Part shown: positions 20,841-31,912 of the stretch, piece after piece | How positions within the stretch are numbered: the first letter of the stretch is position 1 | How the letters are laid out: every line of letters starts with the position of its first letter | Assembly (NCBI RefSeq): GCF_018138715.1 | Contig: NZ_JAGSHX010000006.1 | Coordinates: 6,572,001 to 6,636,000 of the forward strand | Length of the DNA stretch: 64,000 nucleotides | Reading direction: 5' to 3' | Origin: Streptomyces asiaticus | Lineage (GTDB): Bacteria; Actinomycetota; Actinomycetes; Streptomycetales; Streptomycetaceae | Translations under genes and position numbers: made by a program | Notes under the pieces: generated by a model | Database searches by the model: none | Seen by the model: the letters and a program-made list of their open reading frames with translations, nothing else | Told to the model about the DNA's origin: nothing

Positions 20841-20905
20841 GGGCCTGCGGCGGGCTGCTCCCCTCCCCGCCCCTTCCCGAACCTGGGGCTCCGCCCCAGC
20901 CCCCG
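20841..20905. repeat. Dispersed palindromic element downstream of pullulanase
   Basis: Contains CTGCGGCGGGCTG, then CCCCTCCCCGCCCCTTCCC and the hairpin GGGGCTCCGCCCC. It is the same order of modules as at 60481-60540, and appears in shorter or reversed form at 15462-15535, 16080-16135, 21475-21535, 21635-21690 and 23680-23725. Position after stop codons suggests a terminator function. Confidence 0.7.
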
Positions 20906-21475
20906 GATCGGGGCTCTGTCCCAGGCTCCGGATCGGGGCTCTGTCCCAGGCTCCGGATCGGGGCTCTGCTTCAGGCCCCGGATTGGGGCTCAGCCCCAGA
21001 CCCTGACCGGGGCTCCGCCCCAGGCCCCGGATCGGGGCTTTGCCCCAGGCCCCGGATCGGGGCTCCGCTCCAGCCCCCGGATAGGGCTCTGCTCCAGGCC
21101 CCGGATCGGGGCTTTGCCCCAGGCCCCGGATCGGGGCTTTGCCCCAGGCTCCGGATCGGGGCTTTGCTCCAGGCCCCGGATCGGGGCTTTGCCCCAGGCC
21201 CCGGATCGGGGCTCCGCTCCAGCCCCCGGATAGGGCTCTGCTCCAGGCCCCGGATCGGGGCTTTGCCCCAGGCCCCGGATCGGGGCTTTGCTCCAGGCCC
21301 CGGATCGGGGCTCCGCCCCAGACCCCGACCGGGGCTCCGCCACAGACCCTGGATCGGAGCTCTGCTCCAGGCTCCGGGTTGGGGCTCCGCCCCAGACCCC
21401 GGTCCGGGGCTCTGCTCCAGCCTCCGGATTGGGGCTCTGCCCCAGACCATCGACCGGGGCACCGCTCCAGACCCC
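20905..21475. repeat. 25-bp tandem repeat array (about 23 units)
   Basis: Near-identical units with the pattern GGATCGGGGCTYTGYCCCAG plus about 5 bp recur every 25 bp (occasionally 24), for example starting at 20905, 20930, 20955 and 20980. Each unit contains a small GGGGCT..GCCCC hairpin. A block of several units around 21040-21110 is repeated again at 21180-21260, so the array grew by both single-unit and larger duplications. There are no unique spacers. It lies between convergent genes. Confidence 0.9.
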
Positions 21476-21704
21476 GGGGTCCAGGGGCGGAGCCCCTGGT
21501 GGCGGGAAGGGGCGGGGAGGGGGAAGCCCCCCGGCCCCGTCGCCCCGGCGCGGGTCAGCCGTTGGCCCCAGTCGCCAGGCCCCGCCGTTCTGGCGTGCCA
21601 GCGCGCCAGGGGGGCGTCCGGGGTTCCGCCACGGACCCCGGGGTCCAGGGGCGGAGCCCCTGGTAGTGGGAAGGGGCGGGGAGGGGGAAAACCCGCCGTA
21701 CCCC
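21475..21704. repeat. Two more dispersed palindrome copies between convergent genes
   Basis: Copies at 21475-21535 and 21635-21690 share CCCGGGGTCCAGGGGCGGAG, then CCCCTGGT, then GGGAAGGGGCGGGGAGGGG. The same text is at 16080-16135. CCAGGGGCGGAGCCCCTGG is a perfect hairpin. The ~100 bp between the two copies shows nothing else recognisable. Confidence 0.75.
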
Positions 21705-27065: not shown

Positions 27066-27710
27066 TCAGCCCCGGTCGAGGTAGGCCAGCACCGCGAGCA
27101 CCCGCCGGTTGTTGTCGTCCGACGGCGGCAGGCCGAGCTTGCCGAAGATATTGGAGGTGTGCTTGGCGACCGCCCGCTCGGTGACGAACAGCTGCGCCGC
27201 GATCGCCGTGTTCGACCGCCCCTCCGCCATCAGCTCCATCACCTCCAGCTCCCGTGGCGTCAGCCGCCCCAGCGGGCGGTCCTGGGCGCGCCGGTCCAGC
27301 AGCTGCGAGATCACCTGCGGATCCATCGCGGTGCCCCCGGCGGCGACCCGCCGCACCGCGTCGATGAACTGATCGGCGTCGAAGACCCGGTCCTTGAGCA
27401 GATAGCCGATGCCCCCGCTGCCGTCCGCGAGCAGCTCCCGCGCGTACAACTGCTCCACATGCTGCGACAGCACCAGCACCGGCAGCGGCCGCGCCCGCCG
27501 CGCCGCCAGCGCGCACTGGAGTCCCTCGTCGCTGAACGACGGCGGCAGCCGCACATCCACCACCGCCACATCCGGCTCCAGCTCGGCCAGCGCCTTGCTC
27601 AGCTCGGGCCCGCTCTCCACGGCGGCCACGACCTCGAAGTCGTACGCCTCCAGCATGCGCACCAGCCCGTCCCGCAACAGGAACAGATCCTCGGCGACCA
27701 CAACACGCAC
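27066..27710 (-). CDS. NarL/FixJ-family response regulator
   Basis: A 214-residue response regulator. The receiver domain (about 1-120) has the acidic pair in VVVAEDLF, phospho-acceptor Asp in VAVVDVRLPP and Lys in GYLLKDR. The LuxR-type HTH (about 145-205) has LTPRELEVMELMAEGRSN. GTG start at 27710, preceded by GGAGCAG. It is separated from its likely kinase (30638-31912) by the coupled ARPP-2-like and TROVE genes, all on the same strand, so the four genes may be one regulatory unit. Confidence 0.93.
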   Translation of the reverse strand: MRVVVAEDLFLLRDGLVRMLEAYDFEVVAAVESGPELSKALAELEPDVAVVDVRLPPSFSDEGLQCALAARRARPLPVLVLSQHVEQLYARELLADGSGGIGYLLKDRVFDADQFIDAVRRVAAGGTAMDPQVISQLLDRRAQDRPLGRLTPRELEVMELMAEGRSNTAIAAQLFVTERAVAKHTSNIFGKLGLPPSDDNNRRVLAVLAYLDRG

Positions 27711-27789
27711 GGCTGCTCCATGACGTCCTCGGGCCCCGGGCGGGGACACGGCCGAATCGCTGTCGAATCTACCGCGCCGGGGGCCGCCG

Positions 27790-28953
27790 CTACCGGCCCC
27801 GGCGCGCTTCCGCCCGGTAGTGGTCCAGCACGTCCTGCCGCAGCAGCGCCCCGAAGCCCGCCGCCTCGAGGCGCAGCGCCAGCTGGGCGGGGGTGACACC
27901 GAGGAGACCGGCCGCCGCCGCCAGGTTCCAGTCGGCCGCGGCGAGGCGGGTGAGCAGATGGCCGCGGCGGACCTGGTGTTCGGAGAGGCGGAAGGTCTTG
28001 AGATAGGCGAGGCGGCCGTCCTCGTGGGTGATGGTCTCGCCGATGTGCTGCTCGGCGCGGCGGTGGAACGGCGGCAGGAAGCGCGACAGGGCGAACGGCC
28101 CCATGCGGCGCACCCGCTGGACCTCGTACGCGGTGTCCAGCAGCCCGCCCGCGAGCGCGGTGGTGTGGAAGTCCGCCCACTCCGCCCGCTGCCGGGCCGC
28201 CTCGGCGCGCAGCCCGGCCAGGGAGGACACCGCACCGTCCGCTATCCGCGCCCGGAAGTCGGGCACGGGCCCGTACAGCATCGCGTAGTGGTACACCAGC
28301 TCCCCGTACAGATCGTGCAGCAGCGACGGATGCAGGGCGCGGTAGTCGTCCGGATGCGGTACGACGAAGGCGGCGGCGAGCGCGTCGGCGGCGTAGAGCA
28401 GCACCCCGCACTGGCCCGGGTGGATCTCGAAGACCCGGAGCGCGTCGCCCAGACCCGCCACCTCGGCGCCGGTGTACGCCTGCTCGACCCGTGGCGACAG
28501 ACCATGGCTGACCGCCCGGTGCGACCACTCCTCCCACACCACCGCCGGGCCGCCGAAGTGCAGGGCGAGATAGCCCTCCAGCGCGAGGTGCAGGGGGAGG
28601 AAGCGCAGCCGGTTCCGGTCGACGCGGCGCGCCATCCGGCGGTGGAGGCGCAGGGAGACGCACGGCGGCGGGTCGGCCCGCCGCTCGTCCCCCTGCCGCA
28701 GCCGGGTGCCGTACGCCGCGGCCGGGGTCCCGTCGGCCGTCCAGGTGGCGACGAAACCGTGCGGAATGTAGGCGTAGTACGCCGTGCGCCGGTCCAGCGC
28801 GACGGCGGCGAGGTCGTCGCCGTAGAGCCGGGCGTCCAGCCGCAGATCGGCGATCGGCTCGTCCCGGACGAGGGGCACCAGCCGGATCGCGCCCCAGGTC
28901 TGGGCGGGCAGGGCGGTCAGCCCGGCCAGATCGAGCGTCGTGGTGGTCGTCAT
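27790..28953 (-). CDS. ARPP-2-like protein, coupled to the TROVE gene
   Basis: A 387-residue protein, probably cytoplasmic. I match it from memory to the ARPP-2 family (a domain found with ADP-ribosylglycohydrolase and phosphatase genes), with moderate certainty. Seen features: a mixed alpha/beta body (ARLYGDDLAAVALDRRTAYYAYIPHG; FGGPAVVWEEWSH; VFEIHPGQCGVLLYAAD) and a C-terminal helix-turn-helix-like segment (LAAADWNLAAAAGLLGVTPAQLALRL) of FIS type. Its ATG overlaps the stop of the upstream TROVE gene by ATGA, so the two proteins are made together. ATG is preceded by GGAGG. Confidence 0.72.
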   Translation of the reverse strand: MTTTTTLDLAGLTALPAQTWGAIRLVPLVRDEPIADLRLDARLYGDDLAAVALDRRTAYYAYIPHGFVATWTADGTPAAAYGTRLRQGDERRADPPPCVSLRLHRRMARRVDRNRLRFLPLHLALEGYLALHFGGPAVVWEEWSHRAVSHGLSPRVEQAYTGAEVAGLGDALRVFEIHPGQCGVLLYAADALAAAFVVPHPDDYRALHPSLLHDLYGELVYHYAMLYGPVPDFRARIADGAVSSLAGLRAEAARQRAEWADFHTTALAGGLLDTAYEVQRVRRMGPFALSRFLPPFHRRAEQHIGETITHEDGRLAYLKTFRLSEHQVRRGHLLTRLAAADWNLAAAAGLLGVTPAQLALRLEAAGFGALLRQDVLDHYRAEARRGR

Positions 28954-30440
28954 GGTGCCTCCGGCAGTGGCTCGTCCGGCTCCGGCCGGTCCAGGAAGTG
29001 CCGTACCCGGGCGTCGAGATGGGCCCGCAGCTCGGCAAGGCCGGTACGCCCCTCCGCGAACCGCGCGAACTCCACCAGCGTCGGCAGGTCCTCCGCGTCC
29101 CGCACCCCGGCCGTGGGCACGCCCGGCGCCAGCCGCCGTACGTCGAAGCCCTCCGCGTCATAGACCGGGTTGAGGTGCACTACCCCGGTGTGGTGGCCGG
29201 GGTCGAGGCGGGTGCGCCAGACCCGCAGCACCTCTCCGGCCAGTCCGGGCGGTGCGTTGTCCCAGCCGTCGGAGACGATCAGCAGCCGGTCCGGCCGGTG
29301 CTCCAGCGCGTCCAGGATCCGCTCGCCGAGCGGCGTGGGGCCGTACGGATACCGCAGCAGCGGATCCCGGCCGCCCGACAACCACAGCGGCATGAACTCC
29401 TCCGCCAGTGCTTCCAGCAGGAAGTGACAGCCGAGCGCGACGGCGAGCGGGCGGCGCCGCTTCCGCGTGGAGCCGAAGGAGGAGAAGCTGTCGTCGAGGA
29501 CCGCCGCGACCCGGCCCCAGGTACCGGCCCGGGCGCCCGCCGCGCGCCGTGCGGCGGCGCGCAGCGCGGCGGTCAACTCGGCGCGGCGCGCGGCCCGTTC
29601 GTCCAGCGGGAGCGAGAGCACATAGGTCGCCAGCCGGGTCAGCGGCATGGTGGCCAGATCCGCCCGTACGGAGTCGGCCCCGGCCGCGCGGGCCGCGCCC
29701 TGGAGCCGCAGCCGCTCCAGCCGGGTGAGCCGCGGGGCGATCCGCTGCAGGAAGACCTCGCGGTCGATGCCGTGCTTGGCCGCGAAGCCCTCGGCGACGG
29801 TGTACGGGAGCTCGTACACCGCGGACTGCTCGTAGTGGGCGCGGCGCCACGCCTCCAGCAGCGGGGAGCCGAATCCCTCGCTCCGGCGGCCGACCGGCTC
29901 GAAGAGGAACGGGCCGAGGTCGCCGTCGAGCCGCAGATGCGCGTGGCGGACCGCCGACTTGACGGCTCCCCGGTACTTCACCGCGTCGAACGCCGGATCG
30001 GGGCGGGCCGCCAGCCAGTCCCGGACGATGGCGCGGGTGCGGCGGTTGTTGACCCCGGCTCGGCGCAGCCCGCGGAACAGCCGGTAGACCCGGGGCGGCG
30101 GAAGGGCGGCGAGCCGCCGGGCGATCAGCCGGCCCTCGGTCCGGCGCTGTTCCGGTGTGGCCTCCTTGGCGCTCTCCAGCAGCCGCCGAACGATCAGCGC
30201 CGCGTTGTGGTCATTGATGTTCAGCGCGAGGGTCGCCGCGTACAGATCCCGGTAGTTCCCGAGCATGTAGGCGTGCAGGAAGTCGAGCGACATGCGCTGC
30301 TCGCCCGCGTCGGAGTGGAACTCCCGCTGCCCCGTCGAGGTGATGGCCGCGTTGACGAACAGCAGGACGTCCTCGGCCGCGACCAGATCGGCCGGGGTCT
30401 CCATGGGGGACTGCGTTTCCATGGGGGACAGCGTCTCCAT
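28950..30440 (-). CDS. TROVE/vWA-domain protein (Ro60-like)
   Basis: A 496-residue protein. The N-terminal ~270 residues are helical and resemble TROVE (Ro60) domains, for example NRRTRAIVRDWLAAR and the following AVKYRGAVKSAVRHAH. The C-terminal part is a von Willebrand A domain with a MIDAS motif DxSxS in LDDSFSSFG (about residue 315) and a later LLIVSDGWDN. Ro proteins bind Y-type RNAs and help in RNA quality control. The first of three Met-Glu-Thr repeats (METLSP, METQSP, METPAD) is taken as the start, because GGAGG lies 5 nt upstream of 30440; later ATGs at 30422 and 30404 are possible. Confidence 0.8.
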   Translation of the reverse strand: METLSPMETQSPMETPADLVAAEDVLLFVNAAITSTGQREFHSDAGEQRMSLDFLHAYMLGNYRDLYAATLALNINDHNAALIVRRLLESAKEATPEQRRTEGRLIARRLAALPPPRVYRLFRGLRRAGVNNRRTRAIVRDWLAARPDPAFDAVKYRGAVKSAVRHAHLRLDGDLGPFLFEPVGRRSEGFGSPLLEAWRRAHYEQSAVYELPYTVAEGFAAKHGIDREVFLQRIAPRLTRLERLRLQGAARAAGADSVRADLATMPLTRLATYVLSLPLDERAARRAELTAALRAAARRAAGARAGTWGRVAAVLDDSFSSFGSTRKRRRPLAVALGCHFLLEALAEEFMPLWLSGGRDPLLRYPYGPTPLGERILDALEHRPDRLLIVSDGWDNAPPGLAGEVLRVWRTRLDPGHHTGVVHLNPVYDAEGFDVRRLAPGVPTAGVRDAEDLPTLVEFARFAEGRTGLAELRAHLDARVRHFLDRPEPDEPLPEAP

Positions 30441-30513
30441 GGGGGCCTCCGGCGACGGGGTGCGGGAGCCGGCCGGGGAATGGGGGCACGAACTGCGAAT
30501 CGTCGCTTAGCAG

Positions 30514-30544
30514 GCGGGTTCCGGAAGTCGCACCGGAGTCCCGC
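30514..30544. terminator. Hairpin between kinase and TROVE genes (terminator or structured RNA)
   Basis: GCGGG (30514-30518) pairs with CCCGC (30540-30544), and inside it TCCGG (30520-30524) pairs with CCGGA (30533-30537), with an 8-nt loop. It may end the kinase transcript or be in the leader of the TROVE/ARPP-2 transcript. Because Ro proteins bind small structured RNAs, an RNA role should be kept open, but nothing here proves one. Confidence 0.4.
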
Positions 30545-30592
30545 GGCCGGCACCGGCACGCTAACACCGGGGCGGCGCGCCCCGCCGCCGGA

Positions 30593-30648
30593 TTTTCCCC
30601 GGCGGCGGGTCATCTGGCGGCTTTCCCCGGCGGTGGGTCATCTGGCGG
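30593..30648. repeat. 28-bp tandem duplication over the kinase stop codon
   Basis: Two adjacent copies, 30593-30620 and 30621-30648, share TTTCCCCGGCGG, then GGGTCATCTGGCGG with one difference. The second copy contains the kinase stop codon, so the first is a duplicate of the gene's last codons and downstream sequence. Confidence 0.8.
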
Positions 30649-31912
30649 CGCCGTGCGCCGAGAGGGCGCAGGGGATCTCCATCGTCACCATGGTGGGCCC
30701 GCCGGTCGGGCTGCTGACCGCGAGCACCCCGTCGAACGTGCCCAGCCGCCGCTCGACCCCGCTCAGCCCGCCGTCCGGGGTGATCTCCGCGCCGCCGCGG
30801 CCGTCGTCGGTCACGGTGATGCGCAGCATGCCGTCCTGGTGGTGGATGTCCAGCCACATCCGCGAGGCGCCCGCGTGCTTGGCCGCGTTGGTCAGCACCT
30901 CGCTGACCGCGAAGTACGCCGCCGACTCGACCGGTTCGTCGGGGCGGCCCGTGAGGTCCACGTCCACCTCCACCGGCACCGCCATCCGCAGCGCCAGCGC
31001 GCGCACCGCGTCCCCCAGGCCGCGCTCGGCCAGTACCGGCGGATGGATGCCGCGGACCAGGTCGCGCAGCTCGGCCAGGGCCTCGGCAGAGTTCGTACGG
31101 GCCGCGGCGAGCAGCTCCCTGGCCTTCGCCGGGTCCTTCTCGATCAGCGCCTCCACGGTGCCCAGGCTCATGCCCATCGCCACCAGCCGGGCCTGGGCGC
31201 CGTCGTGCAGATCGCGCTCGATGCGGCGCAGTTCGGCGGCGGAGGTGTCCACGGCGTCGTGCCGGGTCTCGGTGAGCCGCCGCACCCGCTGCTCGAGCGC
31301 CATGTGCGGGGTCGGATCCAGGAAGGAGCGCGCCAGCAGGAAGTGGCCGCGCAGCAGGACCGGGGAGAGGACCGAGCCGAGGGCGATGAAGCCGACGCCG
31401 ACCGGGACGGCCAGCAGGGCGGTGCCCAGCGAGTCGATGGGCAGGAACGCGTACCAGTAGGTGCCGCCCGCGTCCACGATCGGCTGCCACACCCCGGCGG
31501 CCAGTACGAACCCCTCGAGCCCGTACGGCATGAAGACGAAGGCCAGCAGCGCGATGGCGTACCCGGCCGTCATGTCGACCTGGAGCCACAGCAGATCGCG
31601 CCAGGTGGCCGGGTCCTTCAGCAGGAAGGTGCACAGCTCCACCTGCCCGGTGACCCCGGAGCGCCGATCGTCCGGCAGCGGGCGGTACGGCAGCTGGATC
31701 CGCACACCGGACCAGGCGGCGGCCAGCAGCCGGCGGTGATTGGCGTGCGCCCGCACCGCGCGGATCAGCGGAGGGGTGGTGAACACCCCGATGCCCAGCG
31801 TGATGAAGCTGATCGACAGGATCGTCAGCACGGACAGGGTGATCGACACCAGCGCGAGCCAGGAGACGGCGAACCCCCGTGCACAGGCCGTCAGCGCTCC
31901 ACGTGCCCTCAT
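30638..31912 (-). CDS. Sensor histidine kinase (HisKA_3 type) with membrane sensor
   Basis: A 424-residue kinase. The N-terminal ~210 residues form a multi-span membrane sensor with about four helices (VSWLALVSITLSVLTILSI onward; AGYAIALLAFVFMPYG; ALLAVPVGVGFIALGSVL). The phospho-acceptor region is RIERDLHDGAQARL, and the ATPase domain has SEVLTNAAKHA and DDGRGG. ATG at 31912 is preceded by GGGGGAAG. Its response regulator is probably the protein at 27066-27710, with two unrelated genes lying between. It is divergent from the MMPL gene. Confidence 0.92.
   Translation of the reverse strand: MRARGALTACARGFAVSWLALVSITLSVLTILSISFITLGIGVFTTPPLIRAVRAHANHRRLLAAAWSGVRIQLPYRPLPDDRRSGVTGQVELCTFLLKDPATWRDLLWLQVDMTAGYAIALLAFVFMPYGLEGFVLAAGVWQPIVDAGGTYWYAFLPIDSLGTALLAVPVGVGFIALGSVLSPVLLRGHFLLARSFLDPTPHMALEQRVRRLTETRHDAVDTSAAELRRIERDLHDGAQARLVAMGMSLGTVEALIEKDPAKARELLAAARTNSAEALAELRDLVRGIHPPVLAERGLGDAVRALALRMAVPVEVDVDLTGRPDEPVESAAYFAVSEVLTNAAKHAGASRMWLDIHHQDGMLRITVTDDGRGGAEITPDGGLSGVERRLGTFDGVLAVSSPTGGPTMVTMEIPCALSAHGAAR

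Follow-up and report, generated by a model that had tools for sequence, protein, structure and literature searches.

What governs a Ro-type protein whose gene lies between those of a histidine kinase and a response regulator, and what would it act with? This question is raised by a stretch of 64,000 nucleotides from Streptomyces asiaticus (assembly GCF_018138715.1, contig NZ_JAGSHX010000006.1, positions 6,572,001 to 6,636,000), the whole of which is referred to here as the window, and in which a TROVE-like protein with a vWA domain and an ARPP-2 domain protein are encoded side by side between the two genes of a two-component system. The original prediction, made from the DNA letters, had read this order as a membrane signal switching on an RNA-handling pair. 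We propose, with a probability of roughly 0.6, that the pair belongs to a three-part module of a Y-like RNA, a divergent Ro60/TROVE-vWA protein and ARPP-2, served by one promoter in front of the RNA and induced by translation stress; within this proposal, the binding of the RNA and the induction are what we infer.

The TROVE-like gene (28950-30440, minus strand, as are all features of the locus) encodes a helical domain at residues 16-304 and a vWA domain at about residues 310-462. In its AlphaFold model (mean predicted local distance difference test score, pLDDT, 79.5) a helical TROVE domain and a C-terminal vWA domain are combined in one fold, and all ten Foldseek matches of this model at E<=0.001 were Ro60, Rsr or TROVE structures, covering about residues 20-483. 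By sequence, the protein had no match at E<=1 in Pfam, NCBIfam, PADLOC or PHROGs, the TROVE profile PF05731 had none at E<=1 across the genome of the window, and those Nostoc, Alkaliphilus and phage relatives that were scanned left it unmatched as well. Searches of the PDB by sequence, with the protein or its alignments, returned nothing relevant, and the fold assignment therefore rests on the predicted model. The earlier call of a TROVE/vWA protein was thus right at the level of the fold, where the model matches Ro60/Rsr/TROVE structures, while the profile search did not bear it out; on the model, the protein is a divergent member of the Ro/TROVE fold. Its residues D316, S318, S320, T369 and D391, which we take to be the metal site positions, are conserved. 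Short matches to PF05731, about 60 of 442 positions, occur in unrelated long open frames of other genomes of the genus, and at least one genome has both such a match and the module.

The identity of the downstream partner, ARPP-2 (27790-28953), was confirmed by a match to the Pfam profile PF22549 (E = 5.5e-133), and its start overlaps the stop of the TROVE-like gene as ATGA at 28950-28953. Q18, E176, Q181 and other residues are common to ARPP-2 and the two ARPP-1 rows of the alignment, but ARPP-2 lacks the C-x-QQTQ stretch that both ARPP-1 rows have, and the chemistry proposed for ARPP may for this last reason not carry over. For the ARPP family, an absolutely conserved cysteine and glutamine have been proposed as catalytic (PMC9503650); in our alignment, compared without the residue numbering of that paper, no cysteine is invariant and Q18 and Q181 are, and C182 is kept in at least 90% of a 33-row alignment, but not in Nostoc or ARPP-1. 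Furthermore, a Fis-type helix-turn-helix-like segment (HTH_8, residues 337-363, at 27865-27945) scores 22.3 bits against a cut-off of 22, and the C-terminal stretch aligning with it is present in 26 of 26 window-type and both Nostoc ARPP-2 rows and missing in the two ARPP-1 rows; judged from these alignments, it may leave room for a regulatory role. A predicted structure of ARPP-2 was poor (pLDDT 49) and was set aside as evidence.

The pairing of the two genes is beyond chance. A scan of named genomes for the TROVE-like gene confirmed 233 loci, and since the best 80 of these form the set used below (the 80 named loci, two of them from the same metagenome bin), this set leans to close relatives. 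In every one of the 80, the two genes adjoin on the same strand with ARPP-2 downstream, at estimated gaps of -48 to +162 nt, and the hosts include Streptomyces, Kitasatospora, Streptosporangium, Actinomadura, Actinoallomurus, Saccharopolyspora, Nocardia, Kibdelosporangium and others. The pair is also found on three Nostoc plasmids, with about 48-50% identity of the TROVE-like protein, and remote TROVE-like relatives on an Alkaliphilus plasmid and in an unannotated 462-kb phage record are each followed by an ARPP-1 gene. The suggestion of an RNA-related module has held up, the pair being real and conserved, and a conserved structured RNA, described below, now joins it. The module is uncommon, as the TROVE-like profile was matched in 2 and PF22549 in 7 (3 above the cut-off) of 396 genomes of the phylum.

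The outlying copies show further features. Of the Nostoc plasmids carrying pair and RNA, two are conjugative and one is non-mobilizable; XisH/XisI genes separate the TROVE-like gene from ARPP-2 in two of the three, one TROVE-like copy has an inner stop, and a macro-domain gene lies about 9 kb from one pair. On the Alkaliphilus plasmid (L153, 5397-9565), a TerD gene precedes the pair of TROVE-like and ARPP-1 genes. A viral origin was considered and rejected: no TROVE-like relative was found among 29 pattern matches in viral contigs, one remote relative was found in 50,697 phage records, and the RNA motif of one viral contig lies inside a long open frame and was taken as chance.

Upstream of the TROVE-like gene, at 30468-30551 (covariance-model match 30466-30554), lies a conserved structured RNA of about 84 nt. 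Within 300 nt upstream of this gene, nine-mers are common to up to 76 of 79 loci, and shuffles reach 10. The RNA was aligned in 58 sequences, to which the window, the three Nostoc copies and 54 of the 80 named loci, hand-picked for spread, contributed; it takes the shape of one long hairpin: an 8-bp closing stem, a bulged C, GGG/CCC, an internal loop with nucleotides on both sides, a 7-bp stem and an apical hairpin. The apical hairpin varies in sequence and the loop nucleotides are nearly invariant. The structure of 21 pairs is paired in 99.0% of the 1218 cells of this alignment, as compared with 40-47% in slid control versions, and 8 pairs are changed on both sides, giving 48 double-change cells, where shuffles gave 10.0 and 0 of 500 reached this number. 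Because the structure was drawn from the RNAalifold consensus of nearly the same rows, the slid control leans in its favour and the shuffles do not. Part of the double changes comes from the three near-identical Nostoc rows, in which the closing stem has a wholly different sequence and still pairs; the pairs 11-91, 12-90, 8-94 and 44-57 covary among actinobacteria too. In single-sequence folding, four of five sequences beat their own shuffles (z -3.0 to -4.4).

This element is not a catalogued RNA: Rfam gave no gathering-score match and only chance-level matches at E<=10. A tRNA-like RNA of the YrlA type was rejected, as ARAGORN found no tRNA at the site in the 60 loci scanned. Its shape recalls the known RNA partners of Ro proteins. 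Ro60 binds vertebrate Y RNAs via a lower stem with a single bulged cytidine, and in Deinococcus radiodurans a Y RNA tethers Rsr, the bacterial Ro60, to PNPase, as described in PMC4726728. The element, with its ends predicted, has the size and the paired ends given there for Y RNAs (about 100 +/- 20 nt), and its closing stem carries one bulged cytidine, at 30543 in the window, which is C in 54 and T in 4 of the 58 rows (alignment column 15). Since it has a bulged-C stem and accompanies a Ro-fold protein, our analysis takes it as most likely the RNA partner of the TROVE-like protein.

RNA and protein gene also travel together. A covariance model built from the 58-row alignment matched in all 80 named loci, 54 of which had contributed rows, with the RNA no further than 250 nt from the gene in 79 of them, and, upstream of the gene, in the three Nostoc plasmids at 77-79 bits, their copies being model rows too; among the candidates scored, the genome of the window has one match. 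Across 295 genomes of the genus, RNA and protein were both found in 43, the protein only in 3, the RNA only in 2 and neither in 247, that is, the RNA in 45 and the protein in 46 (Fisher p 1e-45, kinship ignored). In the three genomes with the protein only, the matches are partial and cover 48-77 residues; the two RNA-only genomes have ARPP-2 remnants beside the RNA, and these five exceptions look like decayed loci. In four genomes, decayed copies of the module with TROVE-like or ARPP-2 fragments were seen, three of them keeping an intact-looking RNA; the decayed copies suggest repeated loss of the module.

The most serious competing explanation, unlikely in our estimate, is that the RNA is a cis-acting 5' leader, autoregulatory or a riboswitch, to which the TROVE protein, ARPP-2 or a small ligand would bind. 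In 71 of 79 loci, 9-47 nt separate the 3' end of the RNA from the assigned start codon, which places it directly before the gene as in a leader, its loop nucleotides are as constant as in ligand-binding leaders, and each genome has one match listed, upstream of the gene and on the same strand. A leader would fit less well with the varying distance between RNA and start codon, which reaches 237 nt in the remaining loci, and with the closing stem, where the predicted 5' and 3' ends pair on either side of the bulged C. In one locus (L056, 4314-5822; Streptomyces sp. NRRL F-6131), the RNA, which looks intact, is found about 1.4 kb upstream, and a 365-codon open frame separates it from the gene; the RNA is therefore separable from the TROVE-like gene. 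Inspection of the alignment brought up neither an alternative hairpin nor a terminator, for which no dedicated test was made, and the neighbouring protein has a Ro fold, the expected partner of which is a Y RNA.

The sequence in front of the RNA offers a candidate switch for the module. Conservation upstream of the RNA peaks at TGTTANNGT and at an A-rich box 44-42 bases before the stem. The WblC consensus of Streptomyces coelicolor consists of GAAAWY, 3 bp, TKGMNN, 16-19 bp and TANNNT, with the start 7-8 bp further on (PMC7157823). Counted from a transcript starting with the stem, GAAAWY with up to one mismatch peaks at -45 (40 of 79 loci), TKGM at -36 and TANNNT at -12 (73 of 79), all at the offsets that the consensus predicts, the median over all offsets being 0. 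The composite motif, with up to 2 mismatches of 13, is present in 47 of 79 loci, related loci not being independent, as compared with 4 of 1580 shuffles and 6 of 1600 random windows, and its commonest placement, an 18-bp spacer with 6 bp to the stem, occurs in 58 of 79. In the window, the box (30591-30596) and the -35 element (30582-30587) have one mismatch each, and the -10 element (30558-30563), seven bases ahead of the stem and within the conserved peak sequence named above, is exact. The consensus was sought after the conservation had been noticed; it was defined elsewhere and no parameter was fitted here. It is present as a sequence pattern across the family, which makes a WblC/WhiB7-type promoter before the RNA the more likely switch of the module, rather than the two-component system.

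The genome of the window also encodes eight WhiB-family proteins, one of which has a C-terminal RGRPR, whose letters RGRP we take to be an AT-hook. A C-terminal AT-hook is a mark of WhiB7 (PMC3905903). A 15-bp exact repeat, its copies 28 bp apart (30607-30649), lies at the stop codon of the kinase gene, immediately ahead of the promoter of the RNA.

The next alternative is a conflict or defence system that would act on ADP-ribose or on damaged RNA, comparable to published ARPP neighbourhoods; it is compatible with the three-part module and, as a reading of its own, improbable. The ARPP domain was defined beside ADP-ribosylglycohydrolases, with macro-domain and vWA genes among its associates (PMC9503650), and the pair is present patchily (46 of the 295 genomes), with decayed and plasmid copies. 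Furthermore, a macro-domain gene stands about 3.5 kb beyond the TROVE-like vWA and ARPP-1 genes in the jumbo-phage record (L154, 9926-12537 and 16069-16647). Against this stand the neighbourhoods themselves: gene families other than the pair reach at most 19 of the 80 named loci, and the families that come next reflect mainly shared synteny as far as could be judged, in a survey of rough gene calls and unannotated families in which ARPP-2 itself was clustered in only 50 of the 80. Moreover, the pair had no PADLOC match, and a WblC-type promoter points to translation stress.

All four genes of the original prediction lie on one strand in the order it gave. The histidine kinase (30638-31912; Sensor PF13796, HisKA_3 and HATPase_c) and the LuxR-type response regulator (27066-27710) are probably bystanders, and the frame that they form looks incidental; control of the pair by them was rejected on synteny and is a very improbable reading. 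Besides the window, 3 of the 80 named loci have the full kinase-pair-regulator order; each of the three is about 95% identical to the window, and one has its regulator shifted by about 1.6 kb. A further 2 of the 80 have the kinase alone upstream of the pair, one Actinomadura locus has a related regulator and kinase converging downstream of it, and 74 have no kinase match within the fetched flanks, some of which are cut by contig ends. Among the 30 best-scoring kinase loci of the genus, 23 have the regulator adjacent (gaps of about 110-150 bp) or overlapping and no pair between, the other seven being the window, one locus with pair remnants and five with the regulator displaced or unseen. Kinase matches (E<=1e-60, possibly including paralogues) occur in 225 of the 295 genomes, as against 46 for the TROVE-like gene. 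Two relatives without the pair match the kinase end and the regulator leader of the window, the regulator keeping this conserved leader with or without the pair, and the promoter-like sequence of the pair sits between pair and kinase.

In four pair-bearing regions of the genus, selected because genome scans had placed pair and kinase close together, the regulator directly adjoins the kinase, and the pair lies 2.9-7.5 kb upstream on the same strand. The nearness in these regions counts in favour of control by the two-component system. Together with the 23 of 30, however, they show kinase and regulator side by side in related genomes without the pair between them, an arrangement that the original prediction had named as its refutation, and the idea of an enclosed and switched pair is not supported. 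In a protein tree of 109 rows (quick method, weak deep branches), the clade of the window, represented by its kin L008-L010 with L012 and L013, is apart from the clade with the pair upstream of the same kinase. Elsewhere in the window, a 25-bp unit is repeated in tandem about 24 times between genes, at 20885-21477.

Beside the nearness of the RNA to the start codon, several observations weigh against a stress-induced module of RNA, TROVE-like protein and ARPP-2. In the promoter, GAAAWY is exact in only 10 of 79 loci, and the TKGM peak comprises a low 16 of 79 (the next best being 10, at -25). The Nostoc copies have other sequence upstream of the RNA; to our knowledge, their cyanobacterial phylum is without WhiB. 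The RNA of the window itself beats its shuffles only weakly on folding (z -1.8, with 11 of 200 shuffles folding as well), and the Alkaliphilus and phage relatives, with their ARPP-1 partners, have no match to it. The scan for the RNA across the genus used the stricter filters of Infernal, and in 5 of the 43 genomes with both RNA and protein the protein match is split or broken, one of these having the pair in pieces only with an intact-looking RNA beside it. The HTH_8 match is marginal, being found in 7 of 30 ARPP-2 members, and in more than one clade the pair has the same two-component locus close by, more often than the module would explain.

If the three-part module is taken as the working model, WblC would recruit RNA polymerase under translation stress, and the first base of the closing stem would be the start of transcription. 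The RNA would be cut from the messenger RNA or terminated before it, and the TROVE protein would bind its bulged-C stem as Ro60 binds Y RNA. The resulting particle may handle misfolded or broken RNA arising when ribosomes stall, with ARPP-2 as a third component acting on RNA ends or ribose-containing nucleotides; alternatively, ARPP-2 may be a sensor feeding back through its helix-turn-helix-like segment. The two-component genes would be no part of it.

Each of the ingredients, namely the Ro fold, Y RNAs, ARPP and WblC promoters, has been described before; the RNA family and the combination did not appear among the publications listed in our searches. Like the Rsr/Y RNA system of bacteria such as Deinococcus radiodurans, the module has a Ro/TROVE fold with vWA and, beside its gene, a small hairpin RNA with paired ends and a bulged C; it differs in a protein sequence too divergent for PF05731, an RNA outside the gathering scores of Rfam, a constant ARPP-2 neighbour and a WblC-type promoter. 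The Salmonella rsr-yrlBA-rtcBA operon likewise joins a Ro-type protein with noncoding RNA under stress control, its activator being RtcR (PMC7790460), and in the module a Fis-type segment is found in ARPP-2. Here ARPP-2 stands in place of rtcBA, and the only rtcB match of the genome is about 1.5 Mb away. ARG-centred ARPP systems (PMC9503650) share an ARPP-family domain beside a vWA protein, and macro-domain genes near the phage and Nostoc pairs recall them. In the module, however, C-x-QQTQ is not kept, a structured RNA is present and the partner is Ro-fold, and neither ARG nor a rhodanese-phosphatase was noticed, although no search was aimed at them. With the WblC/WhiB7 regulon, the module shares promoter elements, spacing and start distance; in the main text of the S. 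coelicolor paper (PMC7157823), the word 'trove' does not occur. Among the best-ranked titles and abstract openings from open-access searches, none described the structured RNA or ARPP-2 with TROVE.

On a wider and more tentative view, to which we give somewhat less than even odds, the module would represent a separate lineage of Ro-type ribonucleoproteins in actinobacteria and on cyanobacterial plasmids, with a new Y-like RNA family, a divergent TROVE-vWA protein and an obligate ARPP-2, induced in actinobacteria through WblC/WhiB7 by ribosome-targeting antibiotics and serving RNA quality control or repair in stalled translation. The role of bacterial Ro60 and Y RNAs has been studied in few species. 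The module brings together a Ro-fold protein, an uncatalogued structured RNA, an ARPP partner that is constant but biochemically uncharacterized, and a promoter class known for antibiotic stress, and precise predictions follow from it: a transcript from one named base, an inducer, a binding protein, and a stem and bulge that would be needed for binding.

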